Positions 164 through 31,819 of a stretch of 49,508 nucleotides of DNA are shown here, one piece after another. Positions within the stretch are counted from its first letter, which is position 1. Each line of letters begins with the position of its first letter. The position numbers and the translations under genes were made by a program. The notes under the pieces were generated by a model. The model was not told the origin of the DNA and searched no databases. It saw only the letters and a program-made list of their open reading frames with translations. Location of the stretch: positions 1 to 49,508 of the forward strand of contig NZ_LAJE02000222.1 of NCBI RefSeq assembly GCF_000970465.2, written 5' to 3'. Source of the stretch: Devosia insulae DS-56. Lineage in GTDB: Bacteria > Pseudomonadota > Alphaproteobacteria > Rhizobiales > Devosiaceae.

Positions 164-2188
164 ATGCCCGAACTCCTCGTCGAACTGTTCTCGGAAGAAA
201 TCCCAGCGCGCATGCAGCGCAAGGCCGCCGAGGATCTGAAGAAGGCCGTGACCAATGCGCTGGTCGATGCGGGCCTCGTCTACGAGGGCGCCAAGGCGTT
301 CGTTACACCGCGACGGCTGGCGCTCACCGTCACTGGCCTCCCGGCCCGTTCGCCTGACACGCGCGAAGAGCGCAAGGGCCCGCGGGTAGGCTCGCCACAG
401 CAGGCGATCGACGGCTTCCTCAAGGCGGCGGGGCTGGGTTCGATAGACGAGGCCAAGATCGAGACCGACCCTAAGAAGGGCGAGTTCTATGTCGCCCATA
501 TCGAGAAGCAGGGCGCCGAGGCGACCGACATTCTGGCGACGCTGCTGCCCAAGGTGATCACCGGCTTCGACTGGCCGAAATCCATGCAATGGGGCAATGG
601 CGGGCTGACCTGGGTGCGGCCGCTGCGCGCCATTACCGCCACCTTCGGCACCGACAATGACGAGCCGGTCGTCATCCCATTCAAGTCGAACACCGTCGCC
701 TCCGGCCAGACCACCTTCGGTCACCGCTTCCTCGCGCCCGACGCGATCTGGGTGAAGCGCTTCGACGATTACGTGCAGGCGCTGGAAAAGGCCAAGGTCG
801 TCCTCGACATCGATCGCCGCAAGGAAATCATCCGGGCCGACGCCGACAACCTCGCCTTCGCGCAGGGGCTCAGCGTCATCCACGACGAAGGCCTGCTCGA
901 AGAGGTCGCCGGCCTCGTCGAATGGCCGGTGGTGATGATGGGCTCGTTCGACCCGGCTTTCCTCGAAGTGCCCGAGGAAGTGATCATCGCCACCATCCGC
1001 GCCAACCAGAAGTGTTTCTGCCTGCGCGACAGCTCAGGCAAGCTGGCGCCGTTCTTCATCATCACCTCGAACCAGGTCGCAGCCGATGGCGGCAAGACCA
1101 TCGTCGCCGGCAACGAGCGGGTCATCCGCGCCCGCCTGTCGGATGCGCGGTTCTTCTATCAGACCGACCTGGTGCTGCCGCTCGAGCATGGCCTGCCCAA
1201 GCTCGAGGAGAGCGTATTCCACGCCAAGCTCGGCACGCAGTTCCAGCGCGTCGAGCGGCTGGTGAAGCTCAGCGGCGAGATCGCGCCCAAGGTCGGGGCC
1301 AACCCTGAACTGGCGAAGCGCGCCGCGATGCTGGCCAAGGCCGACCTCACCACCGGCATGGTCGGCGAGTTCCCCGAGCTGCAGGGCATCATGGGCCGCT
1401 ACTATGCTCTGGCGCAGGGCGAGCCGCTGGCCATCGCCAATGCCATTGCCGACCACTACAAGCCGCTCGGCCCCACCGACCTGGTGCCCGGTGAGCCGGT
1501 CGCCATCGCGGTGGCGTTGGCCGACAAGCTCGATACGCTCAAAGGCTTCTGGTCGATCGACGAGAAGCCGACCGGCTCGCGCGATCCGTTTGCGCTGCGC
1601 CGTGCGGCGCTGGGCGTCATCCGGATCGTCACCGACAATAACCTGCGCTTCCCGCTCGAGGTCGAGCCGGACCTGCTGAGCTTCTTCCACGACCGCCTGA
1701 AGGTGACGCTGCGCGATGCCGGCGCCCGCCACGACCTGGTCGATGCGGTGATCGGCAAGGACAGCAACGACATGCTGGAAATCACCGAACGGGTCGAGGC
1801 ACTGTCGAAGCTGCTCGGCTCGGAAGACGGCAAGAACCTGCTCGCCGGTTACAAACGCGCCGCCAATATCCTCGCCGCCGAAGAAAAGAAGGACGGCAAG
1901 GGGTTTTCTGCTCCGGTCGATCCGGCGCTGCTGTCGCTCGCCGAGGAAGCCGCGCTGGCCGAAGCCATTGCCTCGGTAGATGTGGCAGTTGCTGCCAAAG
2001 TCGGGGCCAATGACTACCAGGGCGCCATCACCGCGCTCGGCACGCTACGCCAGCCGGTCGACAGGTTCTTCGAAGCGGTGCTGGTCAACGATCCGGATGC
2101 GGCGATCCGCGCAAACCGCCTGAGCCTCCTCAGCAAGCTGCGCGACACCATGCGGCAGGTGGCGGATTTCTCGAAGGTCGCGGGCTAG
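164..2188 (+). CDS. glyS: Glycyl-tRNA synthetase beta subunit
   Basis: Large subunit of the heterotetrameric (alpha2beta2) bacterial glycyl-tRNA synthetase, which charges tRNA-Gly in the cytoplasm. The 674-residue product opens with the family hallmark [17 protein letters not shown] and continues through the long tRNA-binding body to a helical C-terminus, close to the usual 680-700 residues. The ATG follows a purine-rich TAAGAG. The alpha-subunit gene glyQ normally lies just upstream, but the 163 bases before this ATG do not encode a recognisable glyQ end, so glyQ is either further upstream or separated by another gene. The 3' end faces a LysR gene across a palindromic repeat. The family assignment is secure. 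Confidence 0.97.
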
Positions 2189-25826: not shown

Positions 25827-26648
25827 TCAGTCGCCCGCTGCCGTCGACCCGGCGGACAAAATCCGCCGTTCCACCGAGAACGGACCCATTTCGGTCATGA
25901 ATGTGAGCCGGACGGGCATGCCCTCCACGCCGCGGCTACTTTCTCCCCCGAGCAGTGGCAGGAGGACTAGTTTTCCATCCGGGCTTTTTTGCGGCGCGCC
26001 AAAGAGTTGCCCGGCCTCGCCGGTGTCGGCGATCAGCGATTGCGGATCGACCTTGCCGTCGTCGAGGCGCACCGCCAGTGCCCCGGCGGCGCTGTCGAAA
26101 CCGACCCAGGCGATGGGGTCACGCGGGTCGTCCCACGGCATCGGCGTCAAGGCCAGCGCCTGGGCAATACGCAGTCCCTGCGCCCGGTCCGGGGCAGCGA
26201 ACGCCAGCGGCAGCTGGAAGCTGGCGGTCACCGGCACGCAGATGTCGGAGCAGACGCCCATAACCACGCCGACCCTGATGTCCGCCGTGTTGCCGTCCAA
26301 CTGCAGCTCGACCGGCAGCACGGTGGGGCCGCGATAGACGAAATCGACATAGCCGGTCTTGGTCTCGATCAACGGGAATGGCCACAGCACCTCGTGGCCG
26401 GCGACCCCCTTGGATGCAGCGAAGTCGAATTCGGTGGGAATGCCAGTCTCGCCGGGGACGCGCCAATAGGTGTTGGTGGCCTCGGGCATGTCGATCTCCA
26501 GCGCCACCATGGTGGTGCCGTCGGGTTTCAGCACGTCGGACGAGATCAGCCGGACTTTGGCGCCGGGCGCCACTTCCTGCCACGGCGTTTCGGCCGCGAC
26601 GGCAGGGGTGAAAAGCATGGGGATAAGCAGAAGTGCCGGGATGCGCAT
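25827..26648 (-). CDS. DsbD N-terminal (alpha) domain-like periplasmic protein
   Basis: A 273-residue secreted protein with a signal peptide (1-20, cut after AVAAE). It resembles the DsbD-alpha/ScsB N-terminal region (PF11412-like): the fragments WRVPGETGIPTEFDF and GVVMGVCSDICVPV with a conserved Cys pair are diagnostic. The membrane domain of DsbD and its C-terminal thioredoxin are absent. The ATG at 26648 has GGAAA just upstream. It may accept electrons from a separate membrane reductase and pass them to periplasmic clients, possibly in copper or cytochrome biogenesis (inference). Confidence 0.85.
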   Translation of the reverse strand: MRIPALLLIPMLFTPAVAAETPWQEVAPGAKVRLISSDVLKPDGTTMVALEIDMPEATNTYWRVPGETGIPTEFDFAASKGVAGHEVLWPFPLIETKTGYVDFVYRGPTVLPVELQLDGNTADIRVGVVMGVCSDICVPVTASFQLPLAFAAPDRAQGLRIAQALALTPMPWDDPRDPIAWVGFDSAAGALAVRLDDGKVDPQSLIADTGEAGQLFGAPQKSPDGKLVLLPLLGGESSRGVEGMPVRLTFMTEMGPFSVERRILSAGSTAAGD

Positions 26649-26775
26649 GGGTTTCCGGATAGCCGAGCGCACCCCAAATAGAAAGGCGGATCAGGTCTTC
26701 GTGAAGCTAGGCAGAGCGGCCGGGCTGAGTCTAAACTAGTTCGATCCGGCTCCGCCGGTGCCAGGAGTGTTGGAT

Positions 26776-27354
26776 ATGGAGTCGCTCAGGGGCCAGTTTC
26801 TCGTCGCCATGCCGGATATGGGCGACGACCGCTTCCGCGAGACCGTGATCTATCTGGTCGGCCATGGCGACGAAGGCGCCATGGGGCTGGTGATCAACCA
26901 GAGCCTCGAAGATATGAAGTTCGCCGATATCCTCGAAGAGCTGCAACTGGGCGCCAAGGATGAGCTGATCCAGCTGCCGGACGCGGTTCGCAACCGCAAG
27001 GTGCTGCGCGGCGGCCCGGTGCAGAAGAGCCGTGGCTTCGTGCTGCACTCGTCGGACTATTTCCGCGTCGGCAACTCCTACGAAGTCACCGACGACATCT
27101 GCCTCACCGCAACGCTCGATATCCTCAAGGCCATTGCGTTCAAGAACGCGCCGAGCGATGCGCTGTTCGCGCTCGGCTATTGCGGCTGGAGTCCGGGGCA
27201 GCTCGAGACCGAAATCCAGGGCAATGGCTGGCTGACCGTGCCGTTCTCGCGCGAGCTGCTGTTCGGGCTGCCGATCGAGAACCGCTACGATGCGGCGCTG
27301 GCCAGCCTCGGGATCACACGCGCGTCGCTGAGTGCGACGGCGGGGCATGGGTGA
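26776..27354 (+). CDS. yqgE: YqgE/AlgH family protein
   Basis: A 192-residue cytoplasmic protein of the conserved UPF0301 family. It begins MESLRGQFLVAMPDMGD, with the typical RETVIYLVGHGDEGAMGLVIN segment and ALGYCGWSPGQLETEI near the C-terminus. The molecular function is unknown. The ATG at 26776 has AGGAG eight bases ahead; a GTG at 26758 is less likely. Its stop codon lies inside the next gene, which begins eight bases earlier, so the two are probably translated together. Confidence 0.95.
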   Translation: MESLRGQFLVAMPDMGDDRFRETVIYLVGHGDEGAMGLVINQSLEDMKFADILEELQLGAKDELIQLPDAVRNRKVLRGGPVQKSRGFVLHSSDYFRVGNSYEVTDDICLTATLDILKAIAFKNAPSDALFALGYCGWSPGQLETEIQGNGWLTVPFSRELLFGLPIENRYDAALASLGITRASLSATAGHG

Positions 27355-28219
27355 ACCAGTCGTCGACATCGCCATCGAGCCGCGCCGTTCGAGCGACCGC
27401 GATCGGCTGAGCCAGGCGCTCGCGCGAATTGCGGACGATGATCCGGACTGCCGTGTGAGGATCGACGCCGAGAGTGGCCAGGTCATAGTTTCGGGCCAGG
27501 ATGAGCACCATCTCGTGCACCTGATCGAACGCCTGAAAGCGGCTGGCGTCGAGCTGAACGTGGGCACGCCACAGGTGGCGTATCGCGAGACGATCACGCG
27601 CCGGGTTGAGCGCGACTACGTCCACAGGAAGCAGTCGCAGGCCGGCAGCCAGTTCGCCCGTATCAAGTTCCGCGTCGAACCAGCCGACGGCCCTCAGTTC
27701 GTCGCGGTGGTCGACGAGGCCAATCTGCCCGCGGCATACATCCTCGCCGTGCAGACGGGTGTTGCATCGGTCATGGGGTCAGGGCCGGTTATCGGGTTTC
27801 CCATCGCCGGCGTCAGGTTCACGCTGATGGATGGCGCTTATCACGATGTCGACTCCTCGACCCTCGCCTTCGAGACCGCCGCTCGCGCCGGGTACTACCA
27901 GGCCATCGAGCAGGCCGGCCCGAAAGTTCTCGAGCCGATCATGTGGCTCGAAGCGCTGGCGCCACAAACCGTCATTGGTGAGGTGATCGGCGACCTCAAC
28001 TCGCGGCGGGGACGGATCGAGCGGACCGAGGCACGGGGAGGCGACCATCTGGTCGTGGCTCTCGTCCCCCTCTCCACGATGTTCGGCTATGCCAATTCGC
28101 TGCGGGCTCTCAGCAGCGGCGCCGGCCGGTACACCATACGGTTCAGCCACTATGCCGAGGTACCAGGCGGCGTCGACCCTGACGACCGCTTCGGACCCGC
28201 GATGGCGATGCGGGCCTGA
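27347..28219 (+). CDS. Stand-alone EF-G domain III-IV-V protein (no GTPase domain)
   Basis: A 290-residue protein that aligns by eye with the C-terminal half of elongation factor G. Domain III is about 1-72 (VDIAIEPRRSSDRDRLSQAL, then SGQDEHHL in place of SGMGELHL), domain IV about 75-190 (QVAYRETIT, then DGAYHDVDSSTLAF) and domain V about 194-275 (VLEPIM, IGDLNSRRG, PLSTMFGYA). The G domain and domain II are absent, and no remnant lies upstream, where yqgE is intact. His166 corresponds to the domain IV loop His needed for translocation. The usual GGRGQ(Y/F)G loop is replaced by QAGSQFA. It starts within yqgE and has GGCGGGG upstream. Function unknown; a ribosome-binding role is inferred. Confidence 0.88.
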   Translation: MGEPVVDIAIEPRRSSDRDRLSQALARIADDDPDCRVRIDAESGQVIVSGQDEHHLVHLIERLKAAGVELNVGTPQVAYRETITRRVERDYVHRKQSQAGSQFARIKFRVEPADGPQFVAVVDEANLPAAYILAVQTGVASVMGSGPVIGFPIAGVRFTLMDGAYHDVDSSTLAFETAARAGYYQAIEQAGPKVLEPIMWLEALAPQTVIGEVIGDLNSRRGRIERTEARGGDHLVVALVPLSTMFGYANSLRALSSGAGRYTIRFSHYAEVPGGVDPDDRFGPAMAMRA

Positions 28220-28259
28220 CGGGCCGGCCCTGCCGGGCGGCCCCACGCACCGACGGTGC

Positions 28260-31142
28260 TTACTTCCCGCTGAACTGACTCTGCAAACGCTTGCCGAGTT
28301 CCTGGCCGGTCATGGCGGCGCCGAAGGCGTAGCCCTGGGCGTATTGGCAGTTGAGCTGCTGCAGGCGCTCGATTTCCTCGATGGTCTCGACCCCCTCGGC
28401 GATGACGCTGAGATCGAGCTCGGTGGCGAGCGTGATGATGGCGCGGATGATCGGCACCTGGGTGTGGCTCATGCCGGTGTCATCGCCGAGCTGCACGAAG
28501 GCGGCCGGGATCTTGATGGTGTCGAACGGGAAGCGGTGCAGGTAGCTCAGTGAGCTGTGGCCGGTGCCGAAATCGTCAAGCGCCAGGCGAAGCCCGAGGG
28601 CCCGCAGCGCATTCAGCACATAGGCCGAGTGCTCGGGGTTGCTCATCACCTGGCTCTCGGTGATCTCGAGCTTCAGGTGGCGGGCGATCTGGCGGTGGTC
28701 GGAGACCAGCGCGCGCATGTCGTTGAGCAGCGACTCGGTGGCGAGCTGCGCCGGCGACAGGTTGACCGAAACAAAGAAATCCTCGGGCAGCGGCAACGAG
28801 GCGGCCCATTCGCGGGCCTGGCCGGCGGCCTGCTCGAAGGCAACGCGGCCGAGGCGCTCGATCAGCCCGGTGCGCTCGGCCAGCGGCACGAACTCCTCGG
28901 GCGCCACCACGCCGCGCTGCGGGTGGTTCCAGCGCATCAGCGCTTCGCAACCGGCGATGGTGCCGGAATGGATGTCCATGATCGGCTGGAACTGCACCGC
29001 CAGCTCGCCATGGCGGAGGCCGCGGTCGAGATCCTCTTCGCCGGCCTTGGAGTAGGCGGCGATGGAGCGGGCCGAGGCGCGGAAGGCTTCGATGCGGTCG
29101 CCGCCCAGGCGCTTGGCGTAGTACATGGCAAGCTCGGCATCGCGCAGCACGTCGGGCGCGGCCACCGGGTTGCCGTCATAGATGGTGACGCCGATCGAGG
29201 CAGTGAGGCTCAGGTCGCGCTCGCCGAAGTTGAACGGCGATTTCAGCGCCTTGCGGATCTGCTCGGCGGTTTCGGCGATCTTGCCGGCCGCCTGCTCGGA
29301 GGCGAGGATGACGCCGAACTGGTCGCCGCCGAGGCGAGCGACGGTATCGAGCGGCCGCATGACGCGAGCGACGCGGCGCGAGATCGCCAGCAGCACGGAA
29401 TCGGCGGCCGAGTGCCCTACCCGCTCCTCGAGCTCGGTGAAGCGGTCGATATCGATGAGGAAGACGGCCGGCTTGGTGCCGTTGGGCAGGCGGGCGCGGA
29501 CCAGGGCGCGCTCCAGCCGGTCGAGGAACAGTTGCTTGTTGGGCAGGCCCGTGAGGCTGTCATGCACGGCATCGTGCAGCAGGCGCTCGCGGCTGGCGCG
29601 ATCCTCGTTGACGTCCTGCAGGGTGCCGACGATGCGGTTGACCTGGCCGTCGCCGCCGAGCACCGGCTTCACCCGCATGCGGAAGGTGCGGAAGCTGCCA
29701 TCGTGGGCGGTCAAGCGCACGTCGGCAGAGACCTTGCCGCGGCGCAGCTCCACCAGTGTATCGAAGGCGGTGCGGAAGCGGTCGCGATCCTCGGGGTGGA
29801 CCCGATCGAGCCAGCGCTTGATCGAGCCGCGCAGCGCGCCACGCCGTTCGCCGAGGCGGGTGCCGAGCTCATCGGAGACGGCGACGCGGTCGCGCTCGAT
29901 GTTCCAGTCGTAGACGAAATCACCCGAGCCGGTGAGCGCCAGGGCGCGGCGCTCGACTTCCGAGAGGGTGCCGATCGACACCTGCCCTTCCGAGAAGGCG
30001 TGCTGCACCGAGGTGAAGCCCAACAGCATGACGATGAGCACGAGGCCGCCGGCGACGGCGGGCTGCGCCACATCGTTGGAGACCTGACCCGTCACCACCA
30101 GCCAGGCATAGAACAGCCAGGCGATGTAGATGATCCAGGTCGGCACCAGCAGCACGGCGCGGTCGTAACCACGCAGCGCCAGGAGCAGGATCAGGAAGAA
30201 GCCGGTAATGCCGAGCAGCGCCAGCACCAGCCGCGCCACCGTCGCGGCGATCGAGGGCTGGAAGAAGGCAAAGCCGAACAGCGCCAGGAACACCACGACC
30301 AGCGCCAGCGCCAGATGGATGAAGCGCAGGTGCCAGCGATGGAGGTTCAGGTAGATGAAGAGGAAGCCGAACAAGGTGGTGGCGATGCCGGCCTCGGCAG
30401 CGGCGCGGAACGGTTGCATCGCGCCATTGGAGATGCCGAGCAATGGCCCGAGCACGCCGAAATCGACGAGCAGGTAGATCAGCACCGCCCAGGAGAACGC
30501 CGCGGTGGCCGGGAAGATGCCGCGCCCCTTCACCACGAACATGATGGTGAGGAACACCGCGGCGAGCGTCGCAACGCCCAGCACCACACCGCGGAACAGC
30601 GTGAACGAGTTCACGTAGTCGCGGTAGGCGTCGGGCTTCCAGAGGTAGAGTTCGGGCAGCGCGCCGCTCGAGAGTTCCGCGACGAAAGTGACGGTGGCGC
30701 CGGGATCGAGCACCACCTCGAACACGTCGGCCTCGCGGTCGGTGAGGCGGGTGGGACGGAGACCGGCGCTGGGGGTCAGCACCTTGATGCGCTCGGCGCC
30801 GAGATCGGGCCGGAACACCCCGGAGCCCGGCAGGCGGAAATACGGGGCGACCAGCAGGCGTTCGAGCTGCACGTCGGAATCGTTGCGCAGCGCGAACAGC
30901 GCCCAGTTCGGGTTGCTGCCACCGACCGAAGCGAGCACCTCGATGCGGCGGATGATGCCGTCCTCACCGGCGGCCGTGGACAGCTGCACTTTGCCGGCCT
31001 CGCCGGGAACGATATCGACCACGCCGGTGAGGTTCACGGCGTTGACGTTCTCGGGGGCGGTGATGACGTCGAAGGCGGCAGCGGGAAGGGTCCCGACCAG
31101 CGCAAACGCAATACACATCGCGAGGTAGAGGATGTGACGCAT
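28260..31142 (-). CDS. Membrane GGDEF/EAL protein with periplasmic and PAS domains
   Basis: A 960-residue c-di-GMP signalling protein. It has a signal peptide (1-23), a periplasmic domain (about 24-175), seven or eight transmembrane helices (about 180-380, 7TMR-DISM-like), a PAS domain (about 405-515), GGDEF (about 525-680) and EAL (about 705-950). The GGDEF signature is GGDQF (605-609). In EAL, the E-A-L-M-R-W motif (733-738), NLS, EITES and DDFGTG are present, but the usual KID is KIP (877-879). A GTG at 31220 overlapping the GNAT stop would add 26 residues before the signal peptide, so the ATG at 31142 is preferred. Confidence 0.93.
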   Translation of the reverse strand: MRHILYLAMCIAFALVGTLPAAAFDVITAPENVNAVNLTGVVDIVPGEAGKVQLSTAAGEDGIIRRIEVLASVGGSNPNWALFALRNDSDVQLERLLVAPYFRLPGSGVFRPDLGAERIKVLTPSAGLRPTRLTDREADVFEVVLDPGATVTFVAELSSGALPELYLWKPDAYRDYVNSFTLFRGVVLGVATLAAVFLTIMFVVKGRGIFPATAAFSWAVLIYLLVDFGVLGPLLGISNGAMQPFRAAAEAGIATTLFGFLFIYLNLHRWHLRFIHLALALVVVFLALFGFAFFQPSIAATVARLVLALLGITGFFLILLLALRGYDRAVLLVPTWIIYIAWLFYAWLVVTGQVSNDVAQPAVAGGLVLIVMLLGFTSVQHAFSEGQVSIGTLSEVERRALALTGSGDFVYDWNIERDRVAVSDELGTRLGERRGALRGSIKRWLDRVHPEDRDRFRTAFDTLVELRRGKVSADVRLTAHDGSFRTFRMRVKPVLGGDGQVNRIVGTLQDVNEDRASRERLLHDAVHDSLTGLPNKQLFLDRLERALVRARLPNGTKPAVFLIDIDRFTELEERVGHSAADSVLLAISRRVARVMRPLDTVARLGGDQFGVILASEQAAGKIAETAEQIRKALKSPFNFGERDLSLTASIGVTIYDGNPVAAPDVLRDAELAMYYAKRLGGDRIEAFRASARSIAAYSKAGEEDLDRGLRHGELAVQFQPIMDIHSGTIAGCEALMRWNHPQRGVVAPEEFVPLAERTGLIERLGRVAFEQAAGQAREWAASLPLPEDFFVSVNLSPAQLATESLLNDMRALVSDHRQIARHLKLEITESQVMSNPEHSAYVLNALRALGLRLALDDFGTGHSSLSYLHRFPFDTIKIPAAFVQLGDDTGMSHTQVPIIRAIITLATELDLSVIAEGVETIEEIERLQQLNCQYAQGYAFGAAMTGQELGKRLQSQFSGK

Positions 31143-31216
31143 TAGCTGAAAAATGGCCCTGCCGCAGTCATGGTTGGGGAACCTAGGTAACGGGGTTTCC
31201 CCCTTGGGACAAGCAT

Positions 31217-31819
31217 TCACCGGCGGCCGTGCCTAACGGCGGCGTCGTAGCGCTCTCGGGTAAGGCCGAACAGCACGTGGTCTGCCCACCTGCCATCGAT
31301 CTGAAGGTAGTGTTCGGCGTAGCCCTCTTCGGTGAATCCGTTTTTTTCAAGGACGCGGCGGCTCGCCTGGTTGTCGGGCAGGAAAGCGGCGTGAATTCTG
31401 TGCAAACCCAGGGTTTCGAAGCAGTAGGGGATCACGAGGCTCACTGCCTCGGTCATGTAGCCCTTGCCGGCGAAGCTGTGCCCCATCCAATAGCCGAGGT
31501 TGACGAACTGCGCGGCACGGCGCCGCACATTGGAGAGGGTGATGCCACCCACCAGTTCTTCGTCGCTGCGGGTGAAGATGAAGAAGGCGTAGTCGGTGCC
31601 GGCTTTCGCCTCTTCACGGCCGCGTCTGAGACGGGCGGCGTAGACCCGCTGGCCGAGATCCGAGTCGGTCCAGCGCGGCTCGTAGGGGCGGAGGAAATCG
31701 CGGCTGGCACGGCGCAGGTCGCGCCAGGCGGTGTAGTCGGTGGCGCGTGGCGCGCGCAGGATCACACGCTGGCCCGTCAGCACCGGGGTATCGTCGCGCG
31801 CAAACCAGGTGAGCATCAT
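31217..31819 (-). CDS. GNAT-family N-acetyltransferase (RimJ/RimL-like)
   Basis: A 200-residue acetyl-CoA-dependent acetyltransferase of the RimJ/RimL type. Visible are the N-terminal strand PVLTGQRVILRAPRATDY, the acetyl-CoA-binding loop in GHSFAGKGYMTEAV, and the conserved LHRIHAAFLPDNQASRRVLEKNGF. The family acetylates N-terminal residues of ribosomal proteins or small amines; the substrate is open. It starts 18 bases after the M16 peptidase stop, and its own stop overlaps a GTG in the frame of the GGDEF/EAL gene, implying a transcription unit thrC-M16-GNAT-(GGDEF/EAL). Confidence 0.93.
   Translation of the reverse strand: MMLTWFARDDTPVLTGQRVILRAPRATDYTAWRDLRRASRDFLRPYEPRWTDSDLGQRVYAARLRRGREEAKAGTDYAFFIFTRSDEELVGGITLSNVRRRAAQFVNLGYWMGHSFAGKGYMTEAVSLVIPYCFETLGLHRIHAAFLPDNQASRRVLEKNGFTEEGYAEHYLQIDGRWADHVLFGLTRERYDAAVRHGRR

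Follow-up and report, generated by a model that had tools for sequence, protein, structure and literature searches.

A free-standing EF-G domains III–V protein behind yqgE in Devosia insulae, a candidate GTPase-less EF-G paralogue

What could a protein made of EF-G domains III, IV, and V, with neither a G domain nor domain II, do in a bacterium, and is the frame that encodes it a functional gene at all? Devosia insulae DS-56 raises this question with an open frame at positions 27347 to 28219 on the plus strand of the window, by which we mean the whole 49,508-nucleotide stretch of contig NZ_LAJE02000222.1 that was analyzed. The frame has an ATG start and no internal stop and encodes 290 residues; an in-frame GTG at 27332 is also possible as the start and would lengthen the product to 295 residues. 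We refer to free-standing EF-G III–V copies as solos and to the genome under study as G000.

Domain content and locus of the solo

When the solo was searched against Pfam, EFG_III (residues 3–73, 27350–27565, E 1.4e-16), EFG_IV (residues 75–190, 27569–27916, E 5.2e-34), and the domain V model EFG_C (residues 194–275, 27926–28171, E 4.2e-23) matched on the plus strand and were the sole families at E 0.001, with no model for a G domain or domain II. The NCBIfam EF-G profile (TIGR00484) gave 282.7 bits from profile position 403 to 681 of 691, below its curated cut-off of 659.4, and tet_protect gave 87.6 bits, below its cut-off of 775. The two sets of matches agree on an open frame that holds EF-G domains III–V in full and lacks both the G domain and domain II, as an earlier note made from the sequence had read it. 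Because the solo is without a G domain, its product would not be expected to use GTP. That note had also called for a check for a separate, full-length fusA, and we found one elsewhere in the 410-contig host genome, as a 742-residue frame on contig C285 whose product is 59% identical to the solo over residues 3–277. A second EF-G of 683 residues, which we label EF-G2-like, is encoded on contig C253 and is 35% identical to the solo.

To place the conserved loops, we aligned the solo with Thermus thermophilus EF-G using phmmer. His166 (codon 27842–27844) fell on His573 in domain IV tip loop II (DGAYHDVDSST, 27830–27862, plus strand), and Gln96 fell on Gln500 in tip loop I (RKQSQAGSQFA, 27626–27658, plus strand; T. 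thermophilus 498–508). The domain V motifs IGDLNSRRG and MFGYA are present, so that the alignment confirms the loop histidine and both motifs as retained. Two further motifs had been described as changed. This is correct for GMGELHL of the host fusA, which reads GQDEHHL in the solo, and half correct for the GGRGQ(Y/F)G loop: GGSGQF has become QAGSQF, with two loop I glycines replaced, but the length of the loop and the Gln500 equivalent are kept in the Devosia solos. Over all solos, the His573 equivalent is kept in 8 of 10 and the Gln500 equivalent in 7 of 9, and loop I is shorter by 4 to 5 residues in two distant copies. Ser661 and Arg666 in domain V (T. thermophilus numbering) are altered in the Devosia solos. 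We took the columns with at least 97% constancy across 37 fusA rows and counted those kept by every Devosia solo: domain III retains 18 of 42, domain IV 34 of 49, and domain V 27 of 38. The loss is strongest in domain III (18/42 versus 61/87 in IV and V together, Fisher p 0.004). The predicted fold (mean pLDDT 84.6), superposed on EF-G structures as had been suggested, matched them with a TM-score of up to 0.88; this match is expected and is no independent test, since 24 of the 26 alignment rows supplied were fusA.

The solo starts inside yqgE (YqgE/AlgH family, DUF179; 26758–27354, plus strand), which is intact, with YqgE/AlgH models matching nearly its entire length, and whose stop codon (27352–27354) lies inside the first solo codons, giving an overlap of 8 nt (27347–27354). 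Upstream of yqgE is a conserved minus-strand neighbor (25827–26672), which we take to encode a DsbD N-terminal-domain-like protein, and downstream is a convergent GGDEF/EAL-type gene (28260–31220, minus strand), named by eye from its sequence. The order yqgE, solo, GGDEF/EAL gene is identical in two other Devosia genomes, G088 and G091, where the solo-bearing contigs measure 0.73 and 1.28 Mb; the earlier note had proposed to look for such copies, of 270–310 residues, beside yqgE. Because the same gene order recurs in both genomes, where fusA genes are again separate, an assembly error that removed an upstream GTPase domain is ruled out, and with yqgE intact upstream the solo is not the tail of a frameshifted fusA.

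The GGDEF/EAL gene is itself unusually conserved, with 99.8 to 100% amino acid identity over the last 435 residues in five Devosia genomes and a dN of at most 0.005. A solo is convergent with a GGDEF gene in two unrelated lineages (window 27347–31220; locus L145, 655–2787), which is probably a coincidence since the two GGDEF proteins look unlike by eye.

Within Devosia, a genus of Hyphomicrobiales in the NCBI taxonomy, the solo was found in 4 of 19 genomes, namely G000, G088 (82% identity), G091 (81%), and G094 (92%, the copy being cut by a contig end), and it was not found in the other 15, some of them incomplete. The three full copies are of equal length and have no stop. In ten Devosia relatives yqgE adjoins the GGDEF/EAL gene with no solo between them; at the four remaining yqgE loci the GGDEF/EAL gene lay outside the compared stretch. 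In G098, which has no solo, 13 of the first 22 nucleotides after the yqgE stop match those of the window (45 of 20,000 shuffles were as good), and this stretch (locus L058, about 1476–1497, minus strand) is possibly the deletion scar of a solo. Given the genomes in which it was not found, the ten relatives without it beside yqgE, and the possible scar, the solo gene is dispensable.

Other short EF-G frames in G087, G091, and G026 are not solos and come from another EF-G paralogue read in two overlapping frames; in G062 the short frames are a copy of the paralogue in two separate frames, and a 353-residue frame there belongs to a fusA whose frame is broken. The broken paralogue (L088, L089, L091, and L090 in G087, G091, G026, and G062) is TetM/OtrA-like by our reading and in the first three genomes breaks close to the linker between domains II and III; it may be a pseudogene, a sequencing indel, or a programmed frameshift.

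A common tail on bodies that resemble host fusA

Ten solos were found in ten genomes. Outside Devosia they are rare and come from four further families of the order (G267, G356, G220, G481, G171, and G492). As a proposed family, they consist of domains III–V only, measure about 289 to 309 residues, and carry the motif D..P..AM at the C terminus; for G356 an inner start was assumed because the frame stays open for 446 residues. Directly downstream of the G220 solo comes rpsL-rpsG-fusA (we named the ribosomal genes by eye), and that fusA is the likely parent of the solo. The remaining solos of other families have neighbors that are unrelated by eye, so that the coupling to yqgE put forward in the earlier note was seen in Devosia alone and is not supported as a general link.

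For prevalence we relied on EFG_IV searches combined with frame lengths, because the full-length and domain V profiles run over 397 genomes of the order give best matches only. Solos were detected in 2 of 75 genomes of the phylum (G000 and G267); the count does not include two short frames, one at the start of a contig in G542 and one containing a stop in G555. They were present in 5 of 18 genomes (G171, G220, G267, G356, and G481), 16 of which had been chosen for extra EF-G matches, with a G402 short frame containing one stop left out of the count; a short frame in G160 was rejected as an EF-G2-type gene in two frames. None was found in 71 genomes of the order (62 in handle order with those already examined removed, plus 9 picked), with a 415-residue frame in G150 left out, and this figure is biased low since the genomes already examined had been removed. 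Two of 13 genomes of the genus of G492 carry a solo. In the phage and plasmid collections there was no match of at least 60% identity among the matches listed (best 20 of 39; best 40 of 1153).

The feature that sets the solos apart from EF-G is the tail. In G000 it comprises residues 276–290, VDPDDRFGPAMAMRA (28172–28216, plus strand), replaces the fusA C-terminal AVATEVQAKYA, and is predicted to be disordered, with pLDDT under 50 for residues 277–290. The tail is nearly identical among the four Devosia copies, and its motif D..P..AM, absent from EF-G, is common to all ten solos. All ten agree at nineteen columns, of which the tail holds four and domain III none; once the partial copy is excluded the number rises to 29, and domain III then contributes three. 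Of the 2090 distinct frames with 100 residues or more in the collected loci, ten matched the tail expression and all ten are solos, although only the background of 0 in 2080 is informative since the expression was written after all ten solos had been seen. A tail DNA pattern, which catches only the PAxAMRA-TGA form and was written before the G492 solo was seen, detected that solo, which was absent from the profile-rank picks. It gave 9 matches in 397 genomes of the order, 2 of them solos, against 3 for the backward control, and 6 matches in 367 genomes of the class, where the only solo was that of this window. In six genomes, the 90 nt that follow the fusA stop do not encode the tail in any of the three same-strand frames. 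By eye, the tail junction lies at nearly the same point across the solos. The G267, G356, and G481 solos, from two families, also have in common an N-terminal APWP(L/V)L stretch that was not seen in the fusA rows.

Where they can be placed, the bodies go with the fusA of the host lineage. In trees built with the tails removed, the Devosia solos fell inside Devosia fusA (support 96/88) and the G267 and G356 solos inside the fusA of their own family (99/98). The G220 solo grouped with G220 fusA (94/95) together with the long-branch rows of G481 and G492, a join that the program flagged as doubtful; the G481, G492, and G171 solos are too divergent for placement. After leaving fusA, the solo stem is long, at 1.2 to 1.3 changes per site. 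AU tests rejected a single solo clade (p 1.5e-4 with 8 rows, 4.6e-5 with 6 rows, and 0.012 for Devosia with G267/G356) and so do not support common descent of the solo body, with the caution that an earlier tree was already known when the groups were named, that long branches are present, and that G171 was left out. When 31 fusA rows were ranked by identity, the fusA of the own lineage came top in all three domains for the Devosia solos and between first and sixth for those of G267, G356, G220, G481, and G171, while for the G492 solo the fusA of a congener ranked 13th, 15th, and 2nd by domain.

How can the same tail stand on bodies of differing origin? The best explanation for common ends with host-like middles would be gene conversion acting on a gene that is older or was transferred. 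On this account, GTPase-free EF-G mimics spread among Hyphomicrobiales and kept their own ends while the middle was repeatedly re-copied from the host fusA, which would yield a host-matched, tail-controlled module at the ribosomal EF-G site; in this full form we consider the account somewhat unlikely. The alternative is that solos were born independently, by repeated duplication of the fusA 3′ part and convergence of the tail on a single partner, gene conversion playing no part. The rejection of one clade for the bodies fits such births, and a common tail on bodies of differing origin could be convergence that need not concern ribosomes. The nearly constant tail junction and the APWP(L/V)L stretch in three copies instead suggest inherited ends with an overwritten middle. 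The synonymous distances of the solo also conflict with those of neighbor genes (G000–G088, 0.355 versus 0.20–0.23; G000–G094, 0.19 versus 0.31), which hints at exchange of the solo between strains and likewise speaks against independent births, although codon bias differs between the genes. We regard independent births as improbable.

Possible functions and selective constraint

We tentatively favor, at a probability of roughly 40%, a functional, rarely kept, GTPase-less EF-G paralogue with its own start and a disordered tail, which would dock at the ribosome as a conditional competitor of, or placeholder for, EF-G. Domain IV of the solo would still sit in the A-site/factor region of ribosomes. 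Because GTP-driven recruitment or release would be impossible without the G domain, the role would be a conditional one, either as a translation brake or in the protection of idle ribosomes. The tail may serve for regulation or for binding a partner, a proteolysis signal being one example, and a host-like body would keep the solo matched to the host ribosome.

An unlikely alternative is that the free III–V module is a decoy that would capture an attacker of EF-G domains III–V, whether a small molecule, a toxin, or a protein, and thereby spare EF-G. Ribosome contact would not be required, the fold being sufficient, and both the patchy distribution and the fast divergence fit an arms race. In the available text of the respective papers, Argyrin B binds between EF-G domains III and V (PMC3438169) and FusB binds an engineered III–V fragment with an affinity comparable to that for EF-G (PMC4725979), so that a free module could serve as a sponge. 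Against a decoy, no biosynthesis or defence gene is evident by eye in the ORF list of the window, and the common tail is left unexplained.

It is also quite unlikely that the solo is a slowly decaying fusA fragment, arisen by partial duplication behind yqgE, translated by chance through the overlap, and under weak residual constraint. Such a fragment would account for the long stem, the failure to find the gene in most relatives, and the possible scar in G098. The stop-free frame is by itself weak evidence against it, because 13% of neutral runs to an equal divergence were likewise free of stops. In a codon model (kappa stayed at 1), omega was 0.23 for the solo, 0.041 for fusA III–V, and 0.023 for EF-G2, that of the solo being about 6 times the fusA value and 10 times the EF-G2 value. 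Whole-gene omega for the six pairs of Devosia solos was 0.20 to 0.29 by NG86 and 0.12 to 0.22 by YN00, with single pairs reaching 0.46 in individual domains; for comparison, the DsbD-like neighbor gave 0.11 to 0.20 (NG86; G000, G088, and G091). The last 20 codons, containing the tail, gave 0.08 to 0.23 (NG86). Between G000 and G088 there are 53 amino acid differences, fewer than in any of 2000 neutral runs (mean 81, minimum 67). The three full Devosia copies of equal length, and the same architecture and tail in other families, where the G267 and G356 solos have an omega of 0.31 (NG86) or 0.19 (YN00), also oppose decay. The solo is thus under purifying selection, yet with a constraint far below that of EF-G. 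A fusA pseudogene is rejected, as there are neither stops, frameshifts, nor neutral rates; the stops that the earlier note expected of a decaying fragment, and the near-neutral rates that it held would tell against a conserved factor, were not observed.

Most improbable of all is an inhibitor or partner of EF-G, in which free III–V competes for the G/II interface or pairs off the ribosome while the tail provides affinity or turnover: EF-G domain III adjoins the G domain and is the most remodelled part of the solo, whose body resembles the host's own fusA, but any recent origin from fusA would be expected to give a host-like body.

Relation to known EF-G-like proteins

Among the matches listed in our search of the open-licence literature, there was no natural G-domain-less EF-G. 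Two surveys of translational GTPases retained, according to the portions available, only proteins with a G domain or GTPase motifs (PMC4342817, PMC1780047), so that a family of motorless EF-Gs would have been filtered out. From its sequence, the solo may represent a type of translation factor that has so far escaped notice. Should it bind ribosomes, it would offer a natural experiment on what domains III–V are capable of without GTP. A mosaic with its own tail and a host-like body would also be unusual, in that an essential gene would be feeding into a rare paralogue.

The ribosomal protection proteins TetM, TetO, and OtrA have an EF-G-like III–V arrangement that acts at the A site. Their profile similarity to the solo is weak, and they are full GTPases, whereas the solo lies far below the NCBIfam cut-offs. 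EFG II, spdEFG, and Bacteroides EF-G2 are full EF-Gs; they are like the solo in being extra EF-G copies but unlike it in being full-length. In the parts of the sources available, they are described as extra, faster-evolving copies beside a normal fusA (PMC3150367, PMC6989115); we found no paper in the open-licence literature on GTP hydrolysis by Bacteroides EF-G2. Nearer in domain content, and about equal in size, is EF-GC3, the engineered III–V fragment of Staphylococcus aureus EF-G (PMC4725979, in part), which is probably the 301-residue chain 2mzw. EF-GC3 is a laboratory construct rather than a gene and has no tail, and its binding of FusB, in the same portion of that paper, indicates that a III–V module can fold and act alone. 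The solo has in common with EF-G itself, the product of fusA (EFG I), domains III–V, the tip histidine and glutamine, and the predicted fold; it differs in that it is without the G domain and domain II, does not lie beside fusA in Devosia, has changed loop I glycines and a changed GMGELHL motif, and carries the D..P..AM tail in place of the last residues of EF-G.
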